Assembly: GCA_030537255.1 (NCBI GenBank)
Contig: JAUNOE010000004.1
Span: forward strand, 1-45,494
Source of the DNA: Coriobacteriia bacterium
GTDB lineage: Bacteria; Actinomycetota; Coriobacteriia; Coriobacteriales; Eggerthellaceae
DNA: 45,494 nucleotides
Direction: 5' to 3'
Part shown: piece by piece, positions 15,657-42,269 of the stretch
Position numbering within the stretch: position 1 is the stretch's first letter
Layout of the letters: every line of letters starts with the position of its first letter
Notes under the pieces: model-generated
The model's input: the letters and a program-made list of their open reading frames with translations, nothing else
Databases searched by the model: none
Told to the model about the DNA's origin: nothing
Program-made: the position numbers and the translations under genes

Positions 15657-15852
15657 TGATCAAGTATAGCGTGCCGCCCTGTGAGTTTGGCGGGGCTAAC
15701 CCGGCCTGCTATCAGGTGCGTTGTGGTTTTGTTTCTTCTTTGCTTGTCTCTGACGGTGCTCTTGCTCAGGGGTTTTATGGGTCACGTTGAGCGCATGGTA
15801 AACTGAAGGGCACGTCTGGAAACCAGGCTTGTTCGAAAGAGAGGAGCGACCG

Positions 15853-17031
15853 GTGGGTCTGAAGAAGCGCATCCAGGATGCCGTTGCTGTGATGTACCAG
15901 CGGATCTATGACCGCGAACGCTCCCGTGTGAAGAAGGACGCACGTCGCAAGCCCTGCATTCTGTTTGCCAGCGTTTCCCGTGCGGAAATCGGTGGAAATG
16001 CGGAATTTGTGTACCGACGCATCTGCGAGCGGGGTCTCGACGTCGATTTCGACATCGTTCTGGACTTTGCCCCTGATATCAAGTCGGTAGAGACGCCCGC
16101 CAAGCAGCTGGCCTTCATTAAACGCCTTGCTCGAGCCGACATCATTTTCCTGGATGACTACCATCCTTTCGTCTACTTCGTCGACTATCCCGCTGACGTG
16201 AAGATCGTGCAGCTGTGGCACGCTATCGGCAGCTTCAAGACCATCGGCTTCAGCCGAAAGCGCGCCAACCAGGAAGAGCACCGCCGCACCAGTAGGGCCC
16301 ACCGTGGCTACACGCATGTCATCGTGAGCGCAGAGGTGGATCGTCCCCATTATGCGGACGCTTTCAATACGCCCATTGATCGCATTTTTGCCACGGGCAT
16401 TCCTCGGGTGGATGGCTTTCTGAATAAGGCGTCCCTGGTTGCCAATCGCCAAGCCTTCTTCGAGCGCTTCCCTGTGGCCCAGGGCAAGCGCGTCATTGTG
16501 TTTGCGCCCACCTTTAGGGAAGACGACATCCGCAAGGCCACCTATGACTTCACTAAGCTCGATTTGGAGGCCATCGCTGCCTATTGCCGCAAGGCGAATG
16601 CGGTGTTCCTGCTGAAGTTCCATCAGTACACTCACGGCTTCGACGGCGTGCCTGCGCACCTGTCTGACGTCATTATCAAGGCGCAGGGCATTCGCGAGGT
16701 CAATGACCTCCTGCCCGCTGCCGACCTTCTGGTCACGGACTATTCGTCGGTGCTCTATGAGGCGGCGCTCATCGATGTGCCAACCGTATTTTACCCCTAC
16801 GACCTGGAAGAATACGAATCCACACGTGGCTTCTACGAGCCCTATGCCAGCTTCGTGCCAGGTCCTATCGTCAAGACGCCTGAGGACTTGGTGGCCCTGC
16901 TTTCGTGGACAGGCGACCAAGAGCAGATTGACGCCTTCAAGAAGCGGCATTTTGCCCACTTCGACAGCCATTCTTCTGACCGCGTGGTCGACTTGGTTCT
17001 GGAAACCACCAAGGGAAGTCTGGCGGGGTAG
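15853..17031 (+). CDS. CDP-glycerol glycerophosphotransferase family protein (TagB/TagF-like)
   Basis: 392 aa from GTG 15853, chosen because AGGAG lies six bases ahead; a TTG at 15829 gives a longer frame without such a site. The C-terminal domain has family motifs LWHAIGSFKTIG, LKFHQYTH and VTDYSSVLYEAALI, with the two His expected for catalysis. The family transfers glycerol-3-phosphate from CDP-glycerol to a lipid-linked primer or growing teichoic acid at the inner membrane face. No N-terminal membrane helix is seen, so attachment is probably peripheral. A TAAACT -10-like hexamer lies at 15799-15804. Next gene is a second family member 63 bases on. Confidence 0.9.
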   Translation: MGLKKRIQDAVAVMYQRIYDRERSRVKKDARRKPCILFASVSRAEIGGNAEFVYRRICERGLDVDFDIVLDFAPDIKSVETPAKQLAFIKRLARADIIFLDDYHPFVYFVDYPADVKIVQLWHAIGSFKTIGFSRKRANQEEHRRTSRAHRGYTHVIVSAEVDRPHYADAFNTPIDRIFATGIPRVDGFLNKASLVANRQAFFERFPVAQGKRVIVFAPTFREDDIRKATYDFTKLDLEAIAAYCRKANAVFLLKFHQYTHGFDGVPAHLSDVIIKAQGIREVNDLLPAADLLVTDYSSVLYEAALIDVPTVFYPYDLEEYESTRGFYEPYASFVPGPIVKTPEDLVALLSWTGDQEQIDAFKKRHFAHFDSHSSDRVVDLVLETTKGSLAG

Positions 17032-17094: not shown

Positions 17095-18762
17095 ATGTCG
17101 GAAATCCAAAAAGAAGCTTCAGTTGCCGCAGAGGCAGTTCAGGGCGGGGCCATCGAGCTCGTTGACTTCCATTGGGAGCGCACCACTATGTTCATGGAGG
17201 TCAGCGCCGATACTCCCTTTGAGCCAGGCGACAAGCTTTTGTTCCATCGTCCTCGTGAGGTGCGCGATGACGATGGCAAGAAGCTCGCGTCCGACCTGGT
17301 GCTCTCCGAGTCTTTCTACGTCGGTCCCACTACCTGGCGTCTAAGGCCCATCGTCGCCTACCAAGATCGTGCCATTCCCTTTGGTGAGTTCGACGCCTTC
17401 ATTGTTCGTGATGGCAAGAAGCTCCCCCTGATGATGGCTTCTGGCTGCCGCAGGTCGGGCGAGCTTGCCACCAGGCGCGATGATGCCCTGTTGTATTTCA
17501 AGACGGGCCATCACTACGAGGTCTTGACCTACCCAACAGACCAGGGACAGGCTCGCTTCGAGGTCTTGGGTCGCGGTCCCAAGAATCCGCGTCTGGACCC
17601 CAAGAGCAAAGTCGTCTCTTCCCTTAAGGGCTTCCTTCGTGGCATGCATGGTGCCATTTGGACAGGCACCGAGCGCACGTTCTGCAAGCATGCCAAGCAG
17701 AAGAAAAAGATCGTATTTACTTCTGACAGGCGTAGCGAGATCGGCGGCAACATGGAGCCGCTGCTCAAGCGCATGGAAGAGCGTGGCATTACCAAGGATT
17801 ACAAGATCGTCTACGACTTCACCGACAAGGCGGGCGGCCGCGGTATCGGCCGCTTCACGAAACTGGCTTGGGATCTGGCCACGGCCAAGATCGTCTTCTG
17901 TGACGACTATCAGCTCACGCTGTATCGCGCCGACTATCAGCCCGGAACCCGTATCGTGCAGCTGTGGCATGCCTGCGGTGCCTTCAAGACCGTGGGTATG
18001 GGTCGCATTGGCACGCTCGATGCCGTCTCGCCCTTCGCTGAGTCGCATCGCTGCTACACCGACGTGGTCGTGGCGGCCGAAAAGGACGAACCCATCTACG
18101 CAGAGGCGTTCGGCATTCCCGAGGACCGTGTGAAGGCGCTGGGCATCCCCCGCCATGACTGGCTGCTGGATCCCGCCTGGCAGAAGGACAAGAAGGCCAC
18201 CTTTGCCAAGACCTTCCCTGGCGCTGCCGACAAGCGCGTCATCGTGTTTGCGCCCACCTTCCGTGGTGCGGGTAAGCGTTCTGCCTATTTCGACTACAAC
18301 TACCTCGACCTCAAGGCACTGGGAGAAGCCTGCCGGAGGAACAACTGGTTCTTGGTGCTTAAGATGCACCCCTTCATTCAGCAGATGCCCACTATCCCCG
18401 CCGAATACGCAGATGTCATCGTGGACGGCTCGGCCATTGCCGAAATCAACGACATCCTGCCCAGCACTGATGTCCTGATCACGGATTATTCGTCCACCGT
18501 ATACGAGGCGGCACTGCTGGACATACCTACGCTGTATTACGTGTTCGACCTGAACAACTACATCGCCACCCGAAACTTCTATGAAGATTTCGAATCCTTT
18601 GTAAGTGGCAAGATAGTGTATACGCAAGATGAGCTTACGTGCGCCATCGAGCAGAACGACTTCGAGCTTGACCGCTTGGAGAGCTTCAAGAAGAAGAGCT
18701 TCAAGCATCTCGACGGCAAGGCTTGCGACCGCATTATCGACGAGGTCATCCTGGGGTCCTAG
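17095..18762 (+). CDS. CDP-glycerol glycerophosphotransferase with extra N-terminal domain
   Basis: 555 aa. The C-terminal ~370 residues repeat the family motifs (LWHACGAFKTVG, LKMHPFIQ, ITDYSSTVYEAALLDIP) and are clearly paralogous to the 15853-17031 protein. The N-terminal ~180 residues are a separate beta-rich domain (ELVDFHWERTTMFMEV through YEVLTYPTDQ) with no match I can name. Similar N-terminal accessory domains occur in TagF/TarL-type polymerases and some bifunctional glycosyltransferases. Transfer or polymerisation of glycerol-phosphate is the likely role. Which of the two enzymes primes and which polymerises is not decidable from sequence. Confidence 0.88.
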   Translation: MSEIQKEASVAAEAVQGGAIELVDFHWERTTMFMEVSADTPFEPGDKLLFHRPREVRDDDGKKLASDLVLSESFYVGPTTWRLRPIVAYQDRAIPFGEFDAFIVRDGKKLPLMMASGCRRSGELATRRDDALLYFKTGHHYEVLTYPTDQGQARFEVLGRGPKNPRLDPKSKVVSSLKGFLRGMHGAIWTGTERTFCKHAKQKKKIVFTSDRRSEIGGNMEPLLKRMEERGITKDYKIVYDFTDKAGGRGIGRFTKLAWDLATAKIVFCDDYQLTLYRADYQPGTRIVQLWHACGAFKTVGMGRIGTLDAVSPFAESHRCYTDVVVAAEKDEPIYAEAFGIPEDRVKALGIPRHDWLLDPAWQKDKKATFAKTFPGAADKRVIVFAPTFRGAGKRSAYFDYNYLDLKALGEACRRNNWFLVLKMHPFIQQMPTIPAEYADVIVDGSAIAEINDILPSTDVLITDYSSTVYEAALLDIPTLYYVFDLNNYIATRNFYEDFESFVSGKIVYTQDELTCAIEQNDFELDRLESFKKKSFKHLDGKACDRIIDEVILGS

Positions 18763-18843
18763 GCGACACTTCGTACGTCAGCCCCGCCATAGGTGCACCC
18801 AAGCTCAAGCAACGAACCACAAACGCAGTTAAGAATCGAGCTT

Positions 18844-19938
18844 ATGACTACTACGACCCAACGTACTTCGGCCAAGAAGGCCTTCATCCTGATATCTCTC
18901 GTGGCGCTCATCGCGGGGCTTGCCCTGACGTGTGGCGCGCGTGAGGCCCACGCTTCTTCGGTGTGGGTGTGCAACATCAAGACGGCTAAGGGCGCCATGG
19001 CGCACAGCACCACGCAGGCCAAGCGCATGAACCTGGATAGCAGCTCCTATACGGTGTATCCCAGCGGCGACAAGTCGGGCCGTACCGACTTCAAGGCTCT
19101 GCATCTGGTCATGAATAAGTGCACCACCTGGGGTCAGCGCTGGGACCATCGCAACAAGAAGATCACCGTGCGCTTGGTCCCTGGCAAGACCTACTACATC
19201 AACCAGACCCTGAAGCTCTACAACAACATCACCTTCATTGGCACGGGCGCTACCTTGCGTCAGGTGGCCAACGGCAAGGGTGTCTTCATCAATGCCCTGT
19301 ACAAAAGCTCGTCCGATAATGTTGGATCGGTACGTAAGATCGGTGGCTACAAGCGCGGTCATAACTTTGTCATCAAGGGCGGAAAGTACGTCACCACGGG
19401 CAAGCCTGGTTCGACGTCGCGTTCCAAGAATGGCTGGCGTTTTGGCTACAGCACCTTCCTGTTCATGCATTGCAACAAGATTCGCATCAAGGACGTCACC
19501 ATAACCAACAACTACAATGGCCACTCGATTGAGTTGGCTGGTTGTGCCAACACGCGCATCGAGCGCTGCACCTTCAACGGCACCTACCGCGGCGACAGCA
19601 CCAACGAGGTCATCCAGCTGGATACCACCAAGAACTCCAGCTGCAGCCCCCAGGGCGCGCCTTGGGACGGCACTACCACGCGAACCACCCTCATCGACCG
19701 CTGCAAGTTCTACGTAACCAACTGCCCCAAGGGCGTTGGCACTAACAACATGTCTACGAAGGGGTACTATCGTGTGAAGGTCACCAACAGTACCTTCAAG
19801 GTGAAGAAGTACGCCGTCGCTCTGTACAAGGTGACCCGTGGTGGTGCGACCGGCAACAAGATTATTCGCGGTAAGGTGCTCACCGTGAAGTCCCCCAAGG
19901 CCGTCTTGGGCAAGACCGAGAAGAAGCACAGGGCATAA
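18844..19938 (+). CDS. Secreted right-handed parallel beta-helix protein (shorter paralogue)
   Basis: About 364 aa from ATG 18844. A signal peptide (AFILISLVALIAGLALT...EAHA) probably ends near residue 37. The body has beta-helix/pectate-lyase-like coils: TFIGTGATLRQV, IRIKDVTITNNYNGHSIELAGC, TRIERCTFNG and EVIQLDTT. The same ordered motifs occur in the longer protein at 27589-29355 (DGATLRR, AHHLEF, EAIQLD), so they are paralogues. The C-terminus is short and basic (KTEKKHRA). Many beta-helix proteins bind or cleave polysaccharide; no active-site residues can be assigned, so a polymer-binding or polymer-modifying role is an inference from the locus. Confidence 0.85.
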   Translation: MTTTTQRTSAKKAFILISLVALIAGLALTCGAREAHASSVWVCNIKTAKGAMAHSTTQAKRMNLDSSSYTVYPSGDKSGRTDFKALHLVMNKCTTWGQRWDHRNKKITVRLVPGKTYYINQTLKLYNNITFIGTGATLRQVANGKGVFINALYKSSSDNVGSVRKIGGYKRGHNFVIKGGKYVTTGKPGSTSRSKNGWRFGYSTFLFMHCNKIRIKDVTITNNYNGHSIELAGCANTRIERCTFNGTYRGDSTNEVIQLDTTKNSSCSPQGAPWDGTTTRTTLIDRCKFYVTNCPKGVGTNNMSTKGYYRVKVTNSTFKVKKYAVALYKVTRGGATGNKIIRGKVLTVKSPKAVLGKTEKKHRA

Positions 19939-20576: not shown

Positions 20577-21935
20577 ATGTCTGTATCCAAGACGGTCATC
20601 ATCAGCTGTGCTGGCATGGGCAAGCGCCTGGGCATCGGTACCACCAAGTGCCTTGTTGACGTCGATGGCGTGCCCCTGATCATGCGCCATCTGAAAATGC
20701 TCGACGACGTGGAGGACGTTCGTGTGGTTGTGGGCTATCAGGCGGGTGCCGTCATCGCGGCAGTTACTGAGTATCGTCCCGACGTCACTTTCGTCTTCAA
20801 CCATGACTACGCCCACAACGGTACGGGCGCGAGCGTGTCCTTGGCAACGAAGTACGCCAACGACTACGTCCTCACAATTGACGGCGACCTGCTGATCCAT
20901 CCTGAAGACATGCGCAAGATTCTTGCCGCCGAGGGTGAGTTCATCGGCGTTACGGCTCCCGGCACTGACAATCCGGTGCTTACCGACATCGAAGGTGAAA
21001 TGGTAACGGGCTTTTCCCGCGAGCACGGCACCTTTGAATGGACGGGCGTCACACAGGTTCGCTCCGAGCGTATCCAGAACGGCGAAGGACACGTCTATCA
21101 GCTCATCGAGCCGTATCTTCCCATGCCCTACCTCTATCTGAGAACCAAGGAGATCGATACCCCCAACGATTACGACAACGCCGTGAAGTGGGTTCGTAAT
21201 GGCTATTCCGATACCGTGGTCGTGGGTATCGTGGGCGGTATGGGCTCGTATGCCACGGTGGACTTCTTCCGTCGCATGGTGGACGCCTTCCCCGCTCGCT
21301 ACGAGTGGGATCGCCCCCGTATCCTCATCGACAACTACTGCACTATGCCTAGTCGCGTGCGCGCCATTCTTTACGGAGAACGTCGCGGCGAACTGGTAGA
21401 GCAGTTGGCTTCTTCGACCCGCAATCTCATTGATGCGGGTGCGACGCACATCTTCTATGCCTGCAACACGTCTCATGTGTTCATGGACGAAGTGCGCAAC
21501 CTGGTGCCCGATTCGGACCGCTACCTGGTCAGCATGATCGATCTTCTGGCAAAGGATGTCCGAGACGCCGGGGCCAAGGAGGTCTATCTGTTGGCAAGCG
21601 AGGGCACCATTGCTACGGGCATCTATCAGGACGTCTTCGAGCGCTACGGCGTCACGGTGGTTCCTGCAGATGATTCCCAGCAGCAGGTGCTTCGTGAGTT
21701 TATCGAGGTCGTGAAGCAGAACAAGCTCAACGCCACCGAAACCGACCGCTTCGTTGGGTTCCTGGAAGAGCTCGAGGCCCAAAACATCATTCTGGGCTGT
21801 ACGGAGCTGCCCGTTCTTTATGGCGCAGCAACCAGAGCTGCCAAGGACAAGGGCATCTTCGACCCCATGGAATCCGCCATCCAGTTTGCGGTACGCGAAT
21901 TCGCTTCGGCTCAGGCTGCCAGCAACGTGGCCTAG
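20577..21935 (+). CDS. Nucleotidyltransferase fused to Asp/Glu racemase
   Basis: 452 aa, start supported by AGGAGG upstream. Residues 1-210 form an NTP-transferase fold resembling LicC/sugar-phosphate nucleotidyltransferases: CAGMGKRLGIGTTKCLVDVDG-like loop at 11-31 with Lys24, and the metal-binding IDGD at about 101-104. Residues ~211-450 form a PLP-independent aspartate/glutamate racemase: VVGIVGGMGSYATVDFF at the start, and the two catalytic Cys in YACNTSH (C296) and LGCTELP (C408). Both domains look intact. The join is at about base 21207 and no stop or frameshift separates them. Likely roles are making an NDP-activated small group and a D-amino acid for the same polymer, but the substrate is not known. 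Confidence 0.9.
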   Translation: MSVSKTVIISCAGMGKRLGIGTTKCLVDVDGVPLIMRHLKMLDDVEDVRVVVGYQAGAVIAAVTEYRPDVTFVFNHDYAHNGTGASVSLATKYANDYVLTIDGDLLIHPEDMRKILAAEGEFIGVTAPGTDNPVLTDIEGEMVTGFSREHGTFEWTGVTQVRSERIQNGEGHVYQLIEPYLPMPYLYLRTKEIDTPNDYDNAVKWVRNGYSDTVVVGIVGGMGSYATVDFFRRMVDAFPARYEWDRPRILIDNYCTMPSRVRAILYGERRGELVEQLASSTRNLIDAGATHIFYACNTSHVFMDEVRNLVPDSDRYLVSMIDLLAKDVRDAGAKEVYLLASEGTIATGIYQDVFERYGVTVVPADDSQQQVLREFIEVVKQNKLNATETDRFVGFLEELEAQNIILGCTELPVLYGAATRAAKDKGIFDPMESAIQFAVREFASAQAASNVA

Positions 21936-22613: not shown

Positions 22614-23813
22614 TTATTCTGCTTGGTGGCCTCGTGCCAACGAGCGTTCGACCAAATCGGCAATGCGTTTGGTCGAACCGTAGTTGATGCCCGCGAAATA
22701 GCTCTTGGACAGGAGGGCAAAGTCGTTGTCGCACGCGTTGCCCCCATGATGAGCCCGGGCTTCGGCCAGGGCTGCGGCCATGGCTTCGCCGGCGTTGGTG
22801 TGAGTGCTGTTGGGTACCTCGCGCGCAAGGTCGATGTTCAGGCCGGGCGATGCTTCGTATTGCTTGAGGTCAGGAACGTAGAGTTCGACGGGGATCCCCA
22901 GGAGTGCCGCCTCGAAGGCGACGGCCGAGTAGTCGCTGATCATCGCATCGCAGACGTCCAAGAGGTGGATGGTTGCCGTGTGGGGGATCTCGTGGATGCA
23001 GGGATGCTCGCGCAACAGCGCCTGGCTGAAGTCGTTGTTCAGGGGGTGCCCTGTGATAACGAGATTTGCCGGTGCATCGCCGCGCGCTCCCTGGGCTTCA
23101 AGGGCGCTAGCGAGCTGCCCCAGGTTGTGGCTGAGCCAGGTTTCGTCGTAACCGTCGCCTTTGCGCAGGGTAGGTGCGTACAGAATGGTGGGCTTGCCGT
23201 TTTCGAGGAAGGGGTTGTTGCGGAGAATGCGTTTTGCCCTGCGCTTGCGGTAGCACTTCGGACCCTCTTCCAGAAGGAAGTCGATACGGGGCAATCCCAG
23301 GGGAACAACAACATCTTGAGGGTAGTCGAAAGCTTGGGCAAAGGCGTTGATGGCGCCCGGGCCGCCGGCGATCACGTAGTCATAGTTGCGGTGCATGCGA
23401 CCTGCTTCGGCAGATTCGCGGCTGCGACCGGCCGGAGTGTCTAGGCACTGGTAGCCAAACTTCTTCACGGCACCAGGGGAGTGCCACATCTGAATGACCG
23501 TACAGTCTTTGGGCTTTTTGGGGATGCTGACGGCTGGTACGTAGCCGTCGACCACGATGACCTTGCTCGTGCAGGCAACGATGAGCTGGCGAAGCGTGCC
23601 TAGGACGAATTTGACTATGTCCTTCGATTCCGGCTCGGTAAGGCAGACGACCACGCGGTCGGGACCCAGGCGCTCTTCCAGCTCGGTGACGAGCATGCGG
23701 TAGTCCATGGACATCTTTTCGCTTTGACGCGACAGCAGGGCCACGCGCTGCTTGCGGGGCAATACATGCAGAAGGCAGGCAAGCAGCTGCAAAACGACCG
23801 CCATGAGCTTCAT
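22614..23813 (-). CDS. CDP-glycerol glycerophosphotransferase family protein, membrane-associated
   Basis: 399 aa from the ATG at 23813, chosen because AGGAGGAG lies about 7-9 bases ahead; the frame extends to 23879 but without such a site. The N-terminus is hydrophobic (MAVVLQLLACLLHVLP) and may sit on the membrane. Family motifs: MWHSPGAVKKFGY, ITGHPLNND and ISDYSAVAFEAALLGIP. It is more distant from the two plus-strand paralogues (SPG instead of AxG). It is transcribed divergently from the TagG-type permease gene. It could be the primase or a different polyol-phosphate transferase (TarK/TarL/TagB-like); sequence alone does not decide. Confidence 0.88.
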   Translation of the reverse strand: MKLMAVVLQLLACLLHVLPRKQRVALLSRQSEKMSMDYRMLVTELEERLGPDRVVVCLTEPESKDIVKFVLGTLRQLIVACTSKVIVVDGYVPAVSIPKKPKDCTVIQMWHSPGAVKKFGYQCLDTPAGRSRESAEAGRMHRNYDYVIAGGPGAINAFAQAFDYPQDVVVPLGLPRIDFLLEEGPKCYRKRRAKRILRNNPFLENGKPTILYAPTLRKGDGYDETWLSHNLGQLASALEAQGARGDAPANLVITGHPLNNDFSQALLREHPCIHEIPHTATIHLLDVCDAMISDYSAVAFEAALLGIPVELYVPDLKQYEASPGLNIDLAREVPNSTHTNAGEAMAAALAEARAHHGGNACDNDFALLSKSYFAGINYGSTKRIADLVERSLARGHQAE

Positions 23814-23849
23814 CTGGACAACTCCTCCTAGGTTGTGTGTGTTCTTTCC

Positions 23850-23879
23850 ATAGTAACGGTAGGTTGGGATACAATTCAA
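23850..23879 (-). promoter_or_regulatory. Candidate sigma-70 promoter for the 22614-23813 gene
   Basis: On the minus strand TTGAAT (23879-23874) and TACTAT (23855-23850) are separated by 18 bases. They lie about 37 bases upstream of the chosen ATG, in the divergent intergenic space before the permease gene. Confidence 0.5.
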
Positions 23880-23915: not shown

Positions 23916-24728
23916 TTGCTGCAATCCTTAAAACAGATTGTGGGGGACGTATGGGGTTGGCGTAAGCAGATCACCCAGTTGGCCCTCTTTGACCTGAAGA
24001 AGCAGGTCGCGCGAACGGCGCTCGGCCCGTTCTGGCTCTTTGCCAAGCGCATCGTCTACGTGCTGGTGTTCTGGTTTGCTCTGGAAATCGGCCTGAAGAG
24101 CGGCAAGGATACTGGTGCTTCCGGTGCCTACCTCGTCTGGCTTGCTTCGGGCGTCTTCACCTGGACCTTCATGCAAAGCATGCTGGGCACGGGTTCCGCA
24201 ATCTTCAACAAGTACTCCTACTTGGTCAGTAAGATCAAGTTCCCCCTGGCGGGTATTCCTGCCATTTATGCGGTGTCCGAAGGAATCATCTTCCTGGGTC
24301 TGCTGATCATTCTTGCCTGCACCTGCCTGGCGTTTGGCGAAATGCCCACGATCCATCTGATTCAGGTCCCCTTTGCCATCGTGCTGCTCATGGTGTTCTG
24401 GTACCTGTTCAGTCTGTTTGCCAGCATGCTGGGCGCGCTGAGCAAGGACTTCCACAACTTGATCACCACGCTGTCCCAGCCCCTGTTCTGGCTTTCGGGC
24501 ATCATCTTCAACATCAGCAACATCCACATTCCTGCCGTGCAGATTTTCGCAATGCTGAACCCCGTTACCTTCTTTGCGAATCTCATGCGTGATGCCATCT
24601 ACTATCACACGTGGATCTGGGACAACCCGAAGGCCTGCCTCGGTTTTGCCATCGTGTTTGTAATCCAGTTCGTGGCAACCCTGGTTGTGTACAAGCGTGC
24701 CGAAACGGAGGTGCGTGATGAGCTCTAA
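23916..24728 (+). CDS. Teichoic-acid/polysaccharide ABC exporter permease (TagG/Wzm-like)
   Basis: 270 aa with six hydrophobic segments in the ABC-2 pattern. The cytoplasmic N-terminus has LALFDLKKQVARTALGPFW, typical of TagG/Wzm permeases, and the C-terminal half has FWLSGIIFNISNI and LNPVTFFANLMRD. TTG is the start codon, with AGGAGA five bases ahead. Its 3' end overlaps the ATPase gene by 11 bases, so the two subunits are translationally coupled. It should export a finished lipid-linked glycopolymer across the membrane. Confidence 0.92.
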   Translation: MLQSLKQIVGDVWGWRKQITQLALFDLKKQVARTALGPFWLFAKRIVYVLVFWFALEIGLKSGKDTGASGAYLVWLASGVFTWTFMQSMLGTGSAIFNKYSYLVSKIKFPLAGIPAIYAVSEGIIFLGLLIILACTCLAFGEMPTIHLIQVPFAIVLLMVFWYLFSLFASMLGALSKDFHNLITTLSQPLFWLSGIIFNISNIHIPAVQIFAMLNPVTFFANLMRDAIYYHTWIWDNPKACLGFAIVFVIQFVATLVVYKRAETEVRDEL

Positions 24729-26385
24729 GGCCCCCGCCATTTCGTCTCAGTCGCTCGCCGGATCGCATTTGGCTACCGTCTACGACGAGCCTCTGTGCGC
24801 CCGAGGTCTTGGTGAGTTCGAAGGCAAGTACTATCTGAACAACGCCGACGCACTCGCACAGTCTCTGTCGCGCGGCGTTCGCGCCCTCGAAGTCGACGTC
24901 CGCCTTTCCGCTGACGGGAAGGCCTGCTGCAGCTACGGCTGGGGTCCTGAGGCACGTAAGCTTCTGGGAATCGAATGGGACCCCACGCAAGGCCCCATGA
25001 CCGAAGCTACCTTCCTCAAGCAGAAGGTCGGCGGTCGTCCCACCATGAGCTTTGAGCGCTTGTATCGCCATATGAAGGAAAATCCCGAACTGTGGTGGGT
25101 GCTCGACTTCGGCAAGACGGGCAAGGAAAACGCAACGCACCTGGCAAACGCCGTGGTGGAAGGCCTGCACAAAGACAAGGCCCTGCTTTCGCGCTGCCTG
25201 GTGCAGGTGCGCAACGCCTCCATGTATCGCGGCGTCGATCGCGCTTACCATTTCTCGCATTACCAAATCATGCTGTGGCCGCGTGAGCGCATCGATGGCC
25301 TGGGTCGCCTGATCACCTACTGTGCCGACTACAACATCGAGGGCCTGGCCATAGAGGCATCCCAATGCTCTGAAGAAGTCGTTGCCATGGTTCGCAAGGC
25401 TGGTCTGAAGCTGCAGTGCTTCGCCACCGATGATGCCGAACTTGCCAACACCCTGCTTGCTCGGGGCGTGAACTCCATCTGCTCCTTCTCGCTTTCTCCT
25501 GAGGACCTCAATGAGGTCCAGGATCCCTATGCGGGTCTGACTGAAGAGCAACGCTGGGAGCATCTGAACGAACTCCGTGCGACCATCGGCAAGGAAAAGC
25601 TCGCTCAGCGCAAGACGGCCATCTCCGATGAGGTGGTGGTCGAATTCGACCATGTTTACAAGAGCTACAACCTGTATAAGAATGACCGCGAACGCCTTCT
25701 GTCCCTGTTCTGGAGCAAGAAGAAGCGTGCCGGAATCACGCGTATCGACGCCAACAACGACCTGTCCTTCCAGATTCGCCGTGGCGAAGGCGTGGCCTTC
25801 CTGGGTCATAACGGCGCCGGCAAGTCTACTGCCCTGAAGATGATTACGGGCGTTTTGTTCCCCACCAAGGGCACGGTTACCGTGTCGGGTGAGGTCAGCG
25901 CCCTGCTTGAGCTGCGTGCTGGTTTTAACGCAAACCTCACGGGTCGCGAAAACATCTATATGCGCGGCTATGCGATGGGCCTGACTGAAGAGCAGATTAA
26001 GCTCATGGAGCCCAAGGTCGTCGAGTTTGCCGACTTGGGTCATTACATCGACCAGCCCCTGCGCAACTACTCTAGTGGCATGAAGGCCCGCTTGGGCTTT
26101 GGCTTTGCCGTTTCCTCCGACCCCGAAATCCTCGTTGTCGACGAGGCCCTTTCCGTGGGCGACAAAAAGTTCAAGCAGAAGTGCATGCAGCGAATTCGCC
26201 AGATCATGGCCGATGACGACGTGACCGTTTTATTCGTTACCCATAGCTCTACTGCCGCACGTGAGTTCTGCTCGCGCGGCATCGTGCTTGACCACGGCAC
26301 CAAGGTGTATGACGGCACCATCAACGATGCCATTGCCTTCTATGAGGCTTCTCAGGGCTTGGCTGATACCAAGGAAAGCAAGTAG
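24718..26385 (+). CDS. GDPD-like domain fused to TagH/Wzt-type ABC ATPase
   Basis: 555 aa from ATG 24718 (GGAGGT just ahead, overlapping the permease gene). Residues 302-555 are an exporter ATPase of TagH/Wzt type: Walker A GHNGAGKST (363-371), signature YSSGMKARL (451-459), Walker B ILVVDE (471-476) and H509. Residues ~15-270 align with glycerophosphodiester phosphodiesterase-like TIM-barrels: GKYYLNNADAL, EVD (E58, D60), and a C-terminal CFATDDAELANTLLARGVNSI. The two catalytic His of that family are replaced: Arg29 in ARGLG where HAGG is expected, and Tyr73 in SYGW where HDW is expected. This is likely a non-catalytic recognition domain for a glycerophosphate-type polymer (inference). Wzt proteins usually carry a C-terminal sugar-binding domain instead. 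Confidence 0.9.
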   Translation: MSSKAPAISSQSLAGSHLATVYDEPLCARGLGEFEGKYYLNNADALAQSLSRGVRALEVDVRLSADGKACCSYGWGPEARKLLGIEWDPTQGPMTEATFLKQKVGGRPTMSFERLYRHMKENPELWWVLDFGKTGKENATHLANAVVEGLHKDKALLSRCLVQVRNASMYRGVDRAYHFSHYQIMLWPRERIDGLGRLITYCADYNIEGLAIEASQCSEEVVAMVRKAGLKLQCFATDDAELANTLLARGVNSICSFSLSPEDLNEVQDPYAGLTEEQRWEHLNELRATIGKEKLAQRKTAISDEVVVEFDHVYKSYNLYKNDRERLLSLFWSKKKRAGITRIDANNDLSFQIRRGEGVAFLGHNGAGKSTALKMITGVLFPTKGTVTVSGEVSALLELRAGFNANLTGRENIYMRGYAMGLTEEQIKLMEPKVVEFADLGHYIDQPLRNYSSGMKARLGFGFAVSSDPEILVVDEALSVGDKKFKQKCMQRIRQIMADDDVTVLFVTHSSTAAREFCSRGIVLDHGTKVYDGTINDAIAFYEASQGLADTKESK

Positions 26386-26398
26386 GCCTGGTGCGCGC

Positions 26399-27583
26399 AT
26401 GGTTTGGATCGAGTGGACAATTCTATTTTTGGTGACCGTTCTGGCCACCCTTCTCTTGGTTCCCCTTGTGTCCAAGCTGGCCATCAAGCTTGATGCCGTC
26501 GACTATCCCAGTGCTCGCCGTGTGAACACGCGTCCCGTGCCTCGCTTGGGTGGCGTTGCCATGGTGGGCGCCATGGCAGTGGCCCTGGCGGTGTACATCT
26601 TGGGCGTCTATCTGCTGGGCTGGCACAACGACTTCCTGAAGTTCCGTAACGAATGGAGCGTCAACGTTCCCGGTGTCGCATTGGGCGTCGTCTTCATGTT
26701 TGCGGTTGGTGTGGTCGACGACATCGTGCAGCTCAAGCCCAAGCCCAAGCTGCTTGGCCAGATCGTGGCCGCTTGCATCGTGGCGGGTTCGGGCTTGTTG
26801 CTGTCGAGCTTCCACAACCCACTTCCTGCCGGAGGTTACGTGGAGTTGGGCATTTGGGCCTACCCCATTACGGTGTTCTACCTGGTGGCCTTTGCCAACA
26901 TCATCAACCTGATCGACGGCCTGGATGGTCTGGCGGCAGGCATCACGTCCATTTCTGTGATCACCATCTTTGTTCTGTGCGTTGTCACCAATGCACTTGC
27001 CGCCGCCATGCTTAGCGTGGTCTTGCTGGGTGCTTGTCTTGGTTTCTTGCGTTACAACTTCAACCCCGCGAGCATTTTCATGGGCGATTCGGGTGCGCTG
27101 ACCTTGGGTTTCCTTCTGGGCATCATCTCTCTGTTTGGCAGTGCGCGTACGGCGATGCTGGTTTCTCTGTTGGTGCCCGTTATCGCGGCGGGCGTCCCCA
27201 TCATGGATACCATGGTCGCCATCATCCGCAGGAAGCGGGCTCATCGTCCCATCGGCGAGGCCGACAAGGGCCATATTCATCATCGCCTGATGCAGGCGGG
27301 CTTCAGCCAGCGTGCGACGGTGCTCATCATGTGGGCTTGGACGGCTGCGCTTGCACTGTGTGCGCTGATCATGATGGAATTCGACGGCCCGCTTCGTCTG
27401 GGTGCGCTGCTGGTTGTTGCAGGTCTCACGGCCTATGGCATCTTGCGGCTCAAGCTGGTTCATCCTGCGCTTATGCATCAGTATGCGCCGCGTGTTCGCA
27501 GGAAGAAGCGCTTCACGGGCTCCGTAAGCGCGACGGGCTCCACAGAGAAGGACGCCTCAACCAAGACGAAAGAAGATAAGTAG
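26399..27583 (+). CDS. TagO/WecA-type polyprenyl-phosphate GlcNAc-1-phosphate transferase
   Basis: 394 aa from ATG 26399, 13 bases after the ATPase gene; the frame continues upstream only as overlap with that gene. About ten or eleven membrane segments and all family motifs are present: RPVPRLGGVAM, VGVVDDIVQLKPKPKL (DD motif), NLIDGLDGLAAG, GDSGALTLGFLLG and HHRLMQAGFSQ. The family moves GlcNAc-1-P from UDP-GlcNAc to undecaprenyl phosphate, the first committed step for wall teichoic acid and many glycopolymers. Its place next to the exporter supports that role here. The C-terminal ~30 residues are basic and low-complexity. Confidence 0.93.
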   Translation: MVWIEWTILFLVTVLATLLLVPLVSKLAIKLDAVDYPSARRVNTRPVPRLGGVAMVGAMAVALAVYILGVYLLGWHNDFLKFRNEWSVNVPGVALGVVFMFAVGVVDDIVQLKPKPKLLGQIVAACIVAGSGLLLSSFHNPLPAGGYVELGIWAYPITVFYLVAFANIINLIDGLDGLAAGITSISVITIFVLCVVTNALAAAMLSVVLLGACLGFLRYNFNPASIFMGDSGALTLGFLLGIISLFGSARTAMLVSLLVPVIAAGVPIMDTMVAIIRRKRAHRPIGEADKGHIHHRLMQAGFSQRATVLIMWAWTAALALCALIMMEFDGPLRLGALLVVAGLTAYGILRLKLVHPALMHQYAPRVRRKKRFTGSVSATGSTEKDASTKTKEDK

Positions 27584-27588
27584 AACCC

Positions 27589-29355
27589 ATGAGTGTTACC
27601 GGTGATTCTAGGGACCAAAGGTCGGCCGCATTTCTGTTGGCTCCTTTGGTCTTGTTGCTTGCTGTCCTTGTCATTCTTTTTCCCGCAGTGGCGCATGCCG
27701 AAACCTACGAGGTGACGCAAGACGAATATTTGACCAATTGGGAAGAAAACAACAAGAGCCTCATTCAGTACTACTTGGACAAGGCGAAGACCGCCCAAGG
27801 CGTCACCACGGTTGTCATCAAGCCAGGCCTTTACGAGCTCAAAGGAGCTCTGCAGATCCGCTCGAACACCCATCTTATTTTGGAAGACGGCGCCACCCTG
27901 CGAAGGACCAACGTCGACAAGGGCCTCGTCTACAACCATGGCAAGACCCCTGAAGGCAAGTCCTGGACCACCGCTCGGGGTTACGGCCTTACGAAGAATA
28001 TCGTCGTCGAGGGCAGAGGGGTGGCCACCATTGATGGCGGCGATACTTCCAAGTGCTCCGATGATGGCTCGAGCGACCTGATGCGCTTTGACCACGCAGA
28101 AGGCGTCACGGTAAAGGGTCTTACGTTCCGCAATGTCTACAATGCCCACCATCTGGAATTCGTCGGCGTCAAGAAGGGCCTCATTTCCAACTGTTCGTTT
28201 TCGGGCTTTCGTCGTGCGGCGGGTCACGAAAAGCACCGCAACTATGGCCGTGAGGCCATCCAGCTTGATTCGTGCTGGGCGAACGGGACCTCCGGTGTTG
28301 CCGACCCTGCCACGATGAGCAATCCCGACCGCTGGGCCTCGGGAACCTTCCTCGATGGCACCAGTTGCCAGGATTGCGTCGTCGAGGGCTGCCGCTTCAC
28401 GAACGTTCCCAGCGCCATCGGCCAGCATCACTGGTCACCCGATTCGCGTTACAAGAATTCGAGCAACATCGTTATCAGGAACAACGTCATCACGGGTGGC
28501 CGTTCCGACAAGATGCTGCGCTATGCCATTACGGTGGGCGGATTGGACAACACCACGGTGAGCGGCAACACCATCACTGGCTCGTTTTACCGTGGCGTGC
28601 TTTCCTACCAGGCGCGCAATTTGGTGGTTTCCGGCAACACCATCGATGGTGCTACCGTGGGCGTCTACACGCAGTCAAAGGCGCTGAACGCCAAGATCGA
28701 ACGCAACACCATCAAGAACTCAGGTGATGCCTCCATCAAGTCATCCAAGGGTGGTTCCCTTGCGTCCATCGCCAATAACACCCTTTCGGGTGCAAGGTCC
28801 TACGGTGTGCATATCGAAGGCGCCCAGGTCTCTTCGATTGCGGGCAATGTGATCTCCTCTGCCAAGAAGTACGGCATTCTTGCTCGTGGCAAGGTTGCAA
28901 ACATCTCGTCGAACCGCATCACGGCATCGTCTGCAGGCATCAACGTGCAGTCGTCCGCAAGTGTTTCCACGGTTGCTAACAACGTCGTGAAGGGTGCTTC
29001 GTACGGCATTCTTGTCCGCGGACATGCGAAGGTGGGACGGGCTCAAGGCAACTCCTTGGCTGGCTGCTCCTACGGCATTGTTGCCAGCGAAAGCGCCAAG
29101 ATGTCCTTGGCAAAGAAGAACGTCATCGAAGGTGCCAAGAAGGCGGGTATTGCGACGACGGGCAAGTCAAAGCTTGCAAAGGTCGACGCCAACACCATCA
29201 AGAAAGCCAAGAAGTATGGCATTCGCCTTTCCAGCAAAGCGGTCAAGGCAAAGGTGACCAACAATTCGGTGCAGGTGCACAAGAAGAAGTACGGTATTTC
29301 CAAGGCCAAGAAGGTCAAGGCGAAGCTTGCTCACAACAAAATCAAGAAGTGGTAG
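27589..29355 (+). CDS. Secreted right-handed parallel beta-helix protein (longer paralogue)
   Basis: 588 aa. The signal peptide (AAFLLAPLVLLLAVLVILFPAVAHA) is cut near residue 38. An N-terminal module shares ordered motifs with the 18844-19938 protein: SNTHLILEDGATLRR, YNAHHLEFVG and EAIQLD. From about residue 300, a run of ~23-residue coils follows with the pattern N.I.GA..YGI...... (for example NTLSGARSYGVHIEG and NVISSAKKYGILARG). The last ~80 residues are very Lys-rich (KKAKKYGI, KVKAKLAHNKIKKW), a plausible electrostatic tether to anionic teichoic acid. The start follows TagO by five bases but the ribosome site is weak. Carbohydrate binding or epimerase/lyase activity is possible; no active site was identified. 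Confidence 0.87.
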   Translation: MSVTGDSRDQRSAAFLLAPLVLLLAVLVILFPAVAHAETYEVTQDEYLTNWEENNKSLIQYYLDKAKTAQGVTTVVIKPGLYELKGALQIRSNTHLILEDGATLRRTNVDKGLVYNHGKTPEGKSWTTARGYGLTKNIVVEGRGVATIDGGDTSKCSDDGSSDLMRFDHAEGVTVKGLTFRNVYNAHHLEFVGVKKGLISNCSFSGFRRAAGHEKHRNYGREAIQLDSCWANGTSGVADPATMSNPDRWASGTFLDGTSCQDCVVEGCRFTNVPSAIGQHHWSPDSRYKNSSNIVIRNNVITGGRSDKMLRYAITVGGLDNTTVSGNTITGSFYRGVLSYQARNLVVSGNTIDGATVGVYTQSKALNAKIERNTIKNSGDASIKSSKGGSLASIANNTLSGARSYGVHIEGAQVSSIAGNVISSAKKYGILARGKVANISSNRITASSAGINVQSSASVSTVANNVVKGASYGILVRGHAKVGRAQGNSLAGCSYGIVASESAKMSLAKKNVIEGAKKAGIATTGKSKLAKVDANTIKKAKKYGIRLSSKAVKAKVTNNSVQVHKKKYGISKAKKVKAKLAHNKIKKW

Positions 29356-39452: not shown

Positions 39453-42269
39453 ATGAACAAGCAGCAAGCCTATCTACTGAGTCTCGGCGCCGAGATTCAC
39501 GACATCTGCGTCAAGCACGGAATCACGTACTTTCTTGGTTGCGGAACCTTGATTGGCGCCGTCAGGCACGGAGGCATCATCCCCTGGGACGACGACTTTG
39601 ACATCCTTATGCCCTATGACCAGTGGCTGAAGTTCAAGGAGGTCTGTCAGGATCCCGCAAACCTTCCTCCCAACCGCATGCTCTGCGCGCCCGACGTGCA
39701 GGAATCCTACTTGCAGGTCATGCCGCGCTATGTTGCGCTGGACACTACCTGCATTCACCGCAATCAGTCGCTTCATAAAGACTATGCGGGCTATGTCATC
39801 GACATCTTCATCCTGGATCCCGTGGCAAACGATCCGGCATCCATCCACGCATATCACAAAGACGTGTTTCTGTACTACGACATGATTTCCTACGCCAATG
39901 CCTCCAGCACGCGTATTGAAGCATCTGTCGAAGAATATGAAGAAGCACTCGCCCTGAAGGAAAAGCTGGGAAAGATTGGTGCAGCCCAGGAGTTCGAGCG
40001 CAGGCTTGCCTCGCATTTCGACCCCGATGGCGACATCTACATCCATCGTTGGCAGGGCAGTGGAACGGTGTACCGCCGTTCGGACTTTGCCGAGGCGCTG
40101 ACCACTCCGGTTGGGCCCTACGAATTCCTTATTCCTCGCGGCTACAATGGCGTTCTGCGTGCGTCGTTCAACGACGAATGGCCCGAAATGCCCGGCAATG
40201 CCAGTGCCGTCAAGCACTCGGCACCTTCTTCGCTGGACTTCTCGTACCGCGAGGCGTTGGAGTTCTACCGTCCTTCTGCCGATCTTGATGAGCTGCGCCA
40301 GGAGCTGCTCGACCGGCGTATCCCTCTCTTGGAGTCGGCTCATGAGCGCCACTACCTGGAGGGCTCCAGGGTTAGGGCCCAGGCATCATTCGCCCTCTAC
40401 GAGCTCAACCGTCGTCTTGAGACAAGGCGGGAAGAATTCGACCGTGCGCTTGCACAGCGCGATGGTGTGGCTCTGAACAAAATCATGGGTCGTTACGTTG
40501 GCTGGCAAATCAGCGGTACGGCCATTGGCCGTAGGTATGCCAAGCTGTTTTGGCGTACGCTCGATCCCGTATTGGCCGAAGTCCCAGACGAAGTGTTCGA
40601 GGCTTTGCTGCTGGCCCTTGTCTGCACGGAGCGCATTGGCCGTGCTCATCAGGTATTGCGTGTGGCCAAGCAGCTGGGCAAGCCCTTGTCTGCTCCTGCT
40701 CAGGAAATCTTTGATGACCTTGAGGCCTTCCGTCAGGCTACCGATGATGTCTGCTATGGGCGCACCGCCGAGGCTCTGACGTGCGCCCAGCAACTCAAGG
40801 CAAAGTACCCTTGTGCCCCCACGTTCTGGTACTTGGAGGTGGAATGCCGCTTCAGGATTTATCAGGTTAAACCTGATGATGAAGCCCTTTCGTCTTTGAG
40901 TGCCTTGGTGGATGAAGCCCTGCTTCGCTTTGAAGGCGATGGCTTCTTCCTGAAGTACCAGGCCGATTGCGCAAGCGCTCGCGGCGAAGACGTAGGCACT
41001 GCTTACTTGGTTGCCGCGGAAAGCACCAAGAACGGCCTGATTCTTCGTGACATCCAGCAGCGCTTTGGCTATGCGCCCGCATGGTTGCGCAACAAGCCTT
41101 GGGCCAAGGCAAACGGCGTTCCTCAGTGGGATGGGCCAAAGGTGTCTTCTGCGAAGAAGTCAGCGGGCACCCCCTCAAGTCTCGATGGCATTCTCAACGA
41201 AAACCAGCGCTCCTTGCTGGCTATGCTTGCGCAGCTCGCAGGCCTCTGCGAAAGGGAGGGGCTGCGCTACCAGTGCGCTCCCGCGCTTGCGCAGGCCTTG
41301 TTTATCAGAAAGAAGCTCCCTTCCCGAATCGATGACTACTGCTTGGCTATGCCTTTGGGCGACCTGCGAAAGCTGCACGACTTGGTGGGGAACCTTCCTG
41401 GTCGCAGGGCATCGTGGCTTGGCTTTGAGTTCTCCAACCGGAACTTGGCGCTGAGGGTTTATGACACTGACAGCTGCCTGCTTGCTATTAACCGCGACCC
41501 CGCCAAACAGGAGCGTCAGCTCTATGTCACTATTTACGCCTTGATGCCTAGCCAGATTCCTGGTGTCTTGGACAGCGTGTTCCAGTCATGGCGCAAGGGA
41601 GCAAGCGCGGAGCAGTTTGAGCCTGCGGGTTTCAAGGCCAAGCTGTACGCTGCCCTTCATGGCCTGAATCAGCGCACGGAAAAGACTGCCGCCAAGTTGG
41701 TTGCGCTGCTCTCCGAAGTAGCGGGCTTCGATGCGTACACCTTGAGGGCGAATGGTCGCTCGGTGAAGGTCGCGCTCGATTTCGAAAAAGAATGCGAGCT
41801 GCGGTCGTTTGCGGGGTGCTCCCTGCGGGCGCCCCAGGATCTTGTCGCGTATGTGAAGGGCGAAGACGTTTCTTGTGGTCGCGCTCTCGAAACGGAGCAG
41901 AGGCGACTGGTGACCCCCTTTGCGACGTACGAGCAGCTTATCGAACGTGGCGTGATTGACGCAGATTGGTATGAGCATCGAAAGCGCTACGAAGCCATTC
42001 GCTCTCAGGTCGATTCGAGCATTGGTGACCGATTCCGTCAGAACTACGCTCAGCTCCGCTTGGCCGTGCGCTTGAAGGCCTTGAGCCGAAGCCTGCTTCC
42101 TAAGAAGGAGCGTATCTGCGCCCTGGCAAAGCAGGGCAATGTGACTGAGCTCGCCAAGGTGCTCAAGTCCTATCGCGCCTGCTATGAGCGTTATCACGAC
42201 TTGGGCGAGGTGTTCCTGGACGACGACATCGATGCAGCACTACAGCTCGTACTTTCCCAGAAGGCTTAG
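39453..42269 (+). CDS. Large LicD-family phosphotransferase with degenerate second LicD-like domain
   Basis: 938 aa from ATG 39453 (AGGAG seven bases ahead; a TTG three bases earlier is less well spaced). The N-terminal LicD domain (~10-270) has the signature GTLIGAVRHGGIIPWDDDFDI with the metal-binding Asp residues. LicD transfers phosphocholine or a like group from the CDP donor to a glycopolymer sugar. Residues ~380-560 are helical and TPR-like. Residues ~595-760 seem to be a second LicD copy: EGLRYQCAPALAQALF then IDDYCLAMPLGDLRKLHDL parallels GITYFLGCGTLIGAV then DDDFDILMPYDQWLKFKEV, but without the glycine and Asp pattern. It may be non-catalytic. It is encoded divergently from the kinase fusion. 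Confidence 0.88.
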   Translation: MNKQQAYLLSLGAEIHDICVKHGITYFLGCGTLIGAVRHGGIIPWDDDFDILMPYDQWLKFKEVCQDPANLPPNRMLCAPDVQESYLQVMPRYVALDTTCIHRNQSLHKDYAGYVIDIFILDPVANDPASIHAYHKDVFLYYDMISYANASSTRIEASVEEYEEALALKEKLGKIGAAQEFERRLASHFDPDGDIYIHRWQGSGTVYRRSDFAEALTTPVGPYEFLIPRGYNGVLRASFNDEWPEMPGNASAVKHSAPSSLDFSYREALEFYRPSADLDELRQELLDRRIPLLESAHERHYLEGSRVRAQASFALYELNRRLETRREEFDRALAQRDGVALNKIMGRYVGWQISGTAIGRRYAKLFWRTLDPVLAEVPDEVFEALLLALVCTERIGRAHQVLRVAKQLGKPLSAPAQEIFDDLEAFRQATDDVCYGRTAEALTCAQQLKAKYPCAPTFWYLEVECRFRIYQVKPDDEALSSLSALVDEALLRFEGDGFFLKYQADCASARGEDVGTAYLVAAESTKNGLILRDIQQRFGYAPAWLRNKPWAKANGVPQWDGPKVSSAKKSAGTPSSLDGILNENQRSLLAMLAQLAGLCEREGLRYQCAPALAQALFIRKKLPSRIDDYCLAMPLGDLRKLHDLVGNLPGRRASWLGFEFSNRNLALRVYDTDSCLLAINRDPAKQERQLYVTIYALMPSQIPGVLDSVFQSWRKGASAEQFEPAGFKAKLYAALHGLNQRTEKTAAKLVALLSEVAGFDAYTLRANGRSVKVALDFEKECELRSFAGCSLRAPQDLVAYVKGEDVSCGRALETEQRRLVTPFATYEQLIERGVIDADWYEHRKRYEAIRSQVDSSIGDRFRQNYAQLRLAVRLKALSRSLLPKKERICALAKQGNVTELAKVLKSYRACYERYHDLGEVFLDDDIDAALQLVLSQKA

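Follow-up and report, generated by a model that had tools for sequence, protein, structure and literature searches.

The window, which is the whole 45,494-nucleotide stretch analyzed from the genome of a Coriobacteriia bacterium (Eggerthellaceae; GCA_030537255.1, contig JAUNOE010000004.1), includes a locus with three CDP-glycerol glycerophosphotransferase-family genes, a polyprenyl-phosphate sugar-phosphate transferase gene, a LicD-type gene, and a TagG-type permease gene followed directly by the gene for a TagH-type exporter ATPase, whose ATG at 24718 lies within the last codons of the permease gene, which stops at 24728 (Table 1). The 555 amino acid (aa) ATPase is unusual in carrying an N-terminal GDPD barrel of ~250 residues, and the coordinates, reading frame, and motifs quoted for it in a preliminary description of the sequence are correct.

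Table 1. Coordinates of the features discussed (positions in the window, except for the last line, where locus labels are given).
Feature	Location	Strand	Basis
CDP-glycerol glycerophosphotransferase-family gene	15829..17031	+	PF04464
CDP-glycerol glycerophosphotransferase-family gene	17095..18762	+	PF04464
CDP-glycerol glycerophosphotransferase-family gene	22614..23879	-	PF04464; best NCBIfam match TarB, below cut-off
tagG-type permease gene	23916..24728	+	Profile match, ORF
tagH-type exporter ATPase gene, N-terminal pseudo-GDPD domain, 555 aa	24718..26385	+	ORF, profile matches, ABC motifs
GDPD-like (beta/alpha)8 barrel, residues about 19-265, in variable TagH N-terminal tail	24772..25512	+	Pfam, alignment, AF2, Foldseek, orthologue comparison
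Arg29 codon, position of first catalytic His	24802..24804	+	Subfamily alignment
Glu58-Val-Asp60 codons, metal-ligand positions kept	24889..24897	+	Subfamily alignment
Tyr73 codon, position of second catalytic His	24934..24936	+	Subfamily alignment
Asp130 codon, third acidic position kept	25105..25107	+	Subfamily alignment
Linker, residues 266-307, predicted helix 276-290	25513..25638	+	AF2
ABC nucleotide-binding domain, residues 308-543, all motifs present	25639..26346	+	Profile matches, motif check
TagO/WecA/MraY-type polyprenyl-phosphate sugar-phosphate transferase gene	26399..27583	+	Profile match
LicD-family protein, 938 aa, homologue of G047 LicD-GDPD fusion	39453..42269	+	
Wzt-like ATPases with CWB2	L045:5772-7625(-); L144:707-2500(-); L145:609-2444(-); L146:1522-3369(+)		

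A glycerol-3-phosphate cytidylyltransferase scoring above the TIGR01518 cut-off is encoded in both this genome and that of a sister species (G013), so that CDP-glycerol synthesis by the cell is predicted and its availability likely. This gene setting agrees with the export of a lipid-linked polyol-phosphate polymer by TagGH, and the polymer is probably a glycerol-phosphate polymer of the cell wall. The locus also holds a fusion of a MobA-like nucleotidyltransferase to an Asp/Glu-racemase-type domain of the cysteate/aspartate racemase family (20577-21935), absent at that place in the sister species, and the polymer genes are flanked by two secreted-looking right-handed beta-helix proteins (18793-19938 and 27589-29355), similar versions of which occur at the same places in the sister species (L004).

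The ABC half of the ATPase is complete, as first described, with the Walker A (363), signature (451), Walker B (471), and H-loop (508) motifs all located and the TagG-type permease gene adjacent. The two best NCBIfam matches were both TagH models, below their equivalog cut-offs (NF010066, 196 bits, cut-off 320; NF010065, 220.6 bits, cut-off 538), and for this reason the protein is called TagH-type and not a TagH equivalog.

The Pfam GDPD profile (PF03009) matches residues 1-291 above its cut-off of 23.6 (28.2 bits, E = 2.5e-6), and in the sister species the match spans profile positions 15-238 of 244. An AF2 model of the domain from a 16-row alignment (pLDDT, 88.4; pTM, 0.88), used in place of one from a four-row alignment (pLDDT, 62.5), has eight barrel strands, preceded by a stretch predicted to be disordered (residues 1-18; pLDDT below 50). 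Nearly all of the top-listed Foldseek matches to the model in the PDB were GDPDs, including TtGDPD (2pz0; TMt, 0.78), spike domains of phage phi812/K (9eul, E = 7e-11; 9f5m, gp155, TMt, 0.75), and Bacillus subtilis GlpQ with glycerol 3-phosphate (5t9b; TMt, 0.73). Homology and predicted fold, the one by sequence cut-off and the other by barrel architecture, thus identify the N-terminal domain as a member of the GDPD family, bearing out the GDPD-like fold proposed for it in the preliminary description. No hydrophobic segment was predicted in the protein (maximum 19-residue hydropathy, 1.0), and from the lack of a predicted membrane segment the domain appears to be cytosolic.

The two catalytic histidines needed for a GDPD to be labelled an enzyme are absent. 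When the domain was aligned to its nearest subfamily, Arg29 and Tyr73, identical in both species, fell exactly on the positions at which the homologues hold these histidines, just as the preliminary description had it. At the first site a shift of one residue is possible, with 'CARG' set against the classical 'HRG' so that Ala28 falls on the histidine and Arg29 on the phosphate-binding arginine, and neither register supplies a histidine; at the second site Tyr73 stands unambiguously opposite the histidine. His17, conserved in both species, was considered as a restored catalytic residue and rejected, as it falls among the disordered residues ahead of strand 1 and the other histidine, the second, is missing anyway. 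In the model, Arg29 directly follows strand 1 (residues 26-28), Tyr73 lies within an insertion loop, Glu58 and Asp60 are on strand 2, and Asp130 is at the end of strand 3. These three acidic residues, at the aligned metal-ligand positions, are retained in both species together with Asn41, while two residues after Asp130 both have a glycine (Gly132 in the window protein) in place of the lysine of the subfamily. The earlier account of the active site was therefore sound on the histidines but left out the kept metal-ligand positions, through which metal and phosphate binding might be retained. Hydrolytic activity is not predicted, since Staphylococcus aureus LpgD is deficient in hydrolysis when its second histidine (H93A) or both histidines (H51A/H93A) are replaced (PMC10404611).

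Within the family, the fusion was found in only two of 138 genomes, the one containing the window and that of the sister species (contig JAUMVJ010000003.1), with the same Arg and Tyr and the same boundaries, and its identical form in a second assembly rules out an assembly chimera. Literature searches for a TagH-GDPD fusion or a pseudo-GDPD exporter returned none, in keeping with the original remark that no named system has this layout. Fifty other close TagH orthologues were counted, 48 of them with open frames of ≤344 aa, and neither of the two remaining long frames is a fusion: that of G131 (L040:6474-8249(-)) has a low-complexity, P/Q-rich N-terminal tail of roughly 300 residues and no GDPD, and the 432-aa frame of G126 reaches a contig edge and has an ordinary distance from ATG to Walker A. 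Nearly all of the orthologues whose N-terminal regions were compared consist of an MSS(N/S) start, a variable tail, and the core 'SDEVVIRFDHVTKTY', and the two fusion proteins of the MSS start, the barrel, and the same core. From the shared start and core, the barrel looks to have been inserted within the variable tail, leaving the tagG-overlapping start codon in place. Between the two species, the barrel has 75% identity and a dN/dS of about 0.15 compared to 95% and about 0.03 for the ATPase half, ratios that are rough at dS > 1; dN in the barrel exceeds that in the ATPase half about sixfold. By these sequence comparisons the barrel is under purifying selection yet evolving faster than the ATPase half.

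The nearest relatives of the barrel form a GDPD subfamily in Clostridia and Coriobacteriia with the motifs 'AHAxGGIxGxxYTNSxEA', 'ExD', and 'xxxHxW/F'. Of 25 motif-bearing rows collected with a profile search, among them those of the window genome (G000) and of G013, 20 keep both histidines, and by alignment it is this subfamily ('HAxGG...TNS'), its members mostly with both histidines, that is the donor. The remaining five rows are the window and sister proteins (Arg, Tyr), two divergent rows in which one histidine is missing or displaced by a residue (L125, L130), and L124 (G568), an LtaS-like fusion that has lost the whole site, with both histidines and the equivalents of Glu58 and Asp130 gone. 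L070 is a minus-strand match to a normal, intact GDPD, and in L129 (G777) a GDPD-like domain precedes a 4HBT thioesterase domain. In a domain tree in which many deep forks are weak, the window and sister copies are placed inside the histidine-bearing subfamily on a long stem (1.86), apart from the copy of another genus (G047) described below. An origin from a stand-alone GDPD of the same genome was also considered; the assembly (82% complete) had no Pfam GDPD match to one, at a threshold that missed even the weak window domain, so that a second divergent copy is possible.

The same barrel occurs on other proteins. The G047 genome encodes a 1134-aa LicD-type protein with an intact-histidine barrel at its C-terminus (L041:4125-7529); its gene lies immediately upstream of TagGH, with a TagD-type gene nearby. 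The LicD-type protein of the window is a full-length homologue of the G047 protein without the barrel (35% over 911 aa). A long LicD-type protein was present in three of three domain-bearing genomes compared to one of 12 without the domain, the 15 genomes being hand-chosen and two of them from one genus. A shared origin of the window and G047 domains is unsupported by the tree, with its weak deep forks, and since it separates them the fusions appear to have arisen independently. Four or five subfamily members in Clostridia sit C-terminal to LtaS-like sulfatase domains (among them L118, L122, L123, and L124), one with its active site lost. Across the LicD, LtaS-like, and TagH fusions, the barrel is thus repeatedly found joined to proteins for the synthesis or transport of glycerophosphate polymers.

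A second, Wzt-like class of ATPase, with open frames of around 600-660 aa, is widespread in the family. In four of four such proteins checked, a C-terminal match to CWB2 (PF04122) was found, above the Pfam cut-off in three and just below it in L146. CWB2 is familiar from wall-anchored proteins outside the cell; in this class it sits on a cytosolic ATPase. Its occurrence suggests that reader-type modules may recur on the exporter ATPases of the family.

The explanation we favor, on which our own opinion is evenly balanced, is that the cytosolic pseudo-GDPD binds the glycerol-phosphate polymer, likely at its free end, and so selects or times export by TagGH. The dead GDPD would be placed in the cytosol beside the nucleotide-binding domain, where it would meet polymer synthesized at the cytosolic side of the membrane, the most likely ligand being the unmodified glycerophosphate at the free end. 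With both histidines gone and the acidic residues kept, that end would be held and not cut, and its binding would select or time export, a role like that of the C-terminal sugar-binding domain of Wzt for O antigens but by a different fold. In B. subtilis GlpQ, the phosphate is contacted by Arg44, His43, and His85 and the glycerol by Ca2+, and glycerophosphate is cleaved off wall teichoic acid at its free end (PMC7086022), so that the GDPD fold is already an end reader. For the selection or timing of export, a precedent is the action of the C-terminal domain of Wzt on capped O antigen (PMC9445017, PMC11231755). That the barrel binds polymer, reads its terminus, and is coupled to ATP hydrolysis is what we infer, and the gene context makes the recruitment of a dead phosphodiesterase to read a glycerophosphate polymer plausible. 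Several observations weigh against a reader role. The barrel is present in only two species and lacking from about 50 orthologues in the family, so that TagGH can in general function without it; the faster evolution of the barrel and its long stem fit loosened constraint as well as a new function; and the subfamily lysine after the third ligand has been replaced by glycine. PF04464 enzymes can also transfer other polyol phosphates.

The dead barrel could instead be a docking or scaffold domain that ties the exporter to a PF04464 transferase or to the LicD-type protein without binding polymer. This is unlikely, though it draws on the fusion of the same domain family to a LicD-type protein adjoining TagGH in G047, on the barrel-less homologue of that protein in the window, and on the distribution of long LicD-type proteins given above with its sampling; a pure scaffold would have no need of the metal-ligand positions, and the tree argues for independent fusions. 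A sensor of a small molecule (glycerol 3-phosphate, CDP-glycerol, or a glycerophosphodiester), which would gate ATP hydrolysis by precursor supply, is less probable again: GDPD pockets do hold glycerol 3-phosphate (5t9b and 3qvq among the Foldseek matches) and CDP-glycerol synthesis is predicted in the cell, but the sequence gives no preference for a free metabolite over a polymer end with the same group.

Slightly less probable still, in our view, is a neutral passenger, with a GDPD domain captured in a tolerant tail and now decaying there. The tails of other orthologues do vary freely in length and composition, as in G131, and a roughly sixfold higher dN than in the ATPase half would suit such a passenger, yet at dS > 1 decay would be expected to have cost the frame or the fold, and the barrel keeps its frame, its predicted fold, 75% identity, and a dN/dS of about 0.15. 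Least probable of all is a domain that is still an enzyme with changed chemistry, in which an acidic metal site without the two histidines would, for example, trim polymer ends. Glu58, Asp60, and Asp130 would allow for it, but neither species retains the two histidines or the lysine close to the third ligand, and loss of the second or both histidines leaves LpgD deficient in hydrolysis (PMC10404611).

The pseudo-GDPD is a soluble and separable candidate reader through which the choice or timing of export by TagGH/TarGH could be approached. To our knowledge, no reader domain has been identified for these exporters, unlike for Wzt. The LicD-GDPD and LtaS-GDPD fusions hint at a wider group, in which a fold that cuts teichoic acid is carried by proteins that make or move it. 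More tentatively than the reader role itself, pseudo-GDPDs may form a general class of glycerophosphate-polymer readers, of which the TagH domain would act as quality control on an exporter ATPase by checking the glycerophosphate end.

In comparison with known systems, the domain shares with GDPDs (PF03009; GlpQ, TtGDPD 2pz0, gp155 9f5m, and the 'HAxGG...TNSxEA' subfamily) the barrel, the motif layout, the E-x-D pair, Asn41, and the third acidic residue, but has Arg and Tyr for the two histidines and is fused to a cytosolic exporter ATPase. TacF, described as a pneumococcal teichoic acid flippase that monitors phosphocholine content, provides, also in a LicD-type setting, a gatekeeping concept for teichoic acid export, but it is a MOP flippase and not an ABC exporter, and its abstract describes no GDPD domain (PMC13385700). 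With TagH/TarH, the ATPase of the wall teichoic acid exporter, the protein has in common its best NCBIfam matches, full ABC motifs, and a permease gene directly upstream; it differs in scoring below the equivalog cut-offs and in a 250-residue N-terminal barrel that the family's other orthologues lack. Wzt, of the O-antigen ABC exporter, likewise joins an exporter ATPase to an added domain, a putative polymer reader in the window protein, but the ABC domain here ends near residue 543 of 555, leaving no C-terminal carbohydrate-binding domain, and the extra domain is N-terminal, a GDPD barrel rather than the Wzt CBD fold, and only putatively a binding domain. The protein thus combines known parts in a new way, so far in two species.
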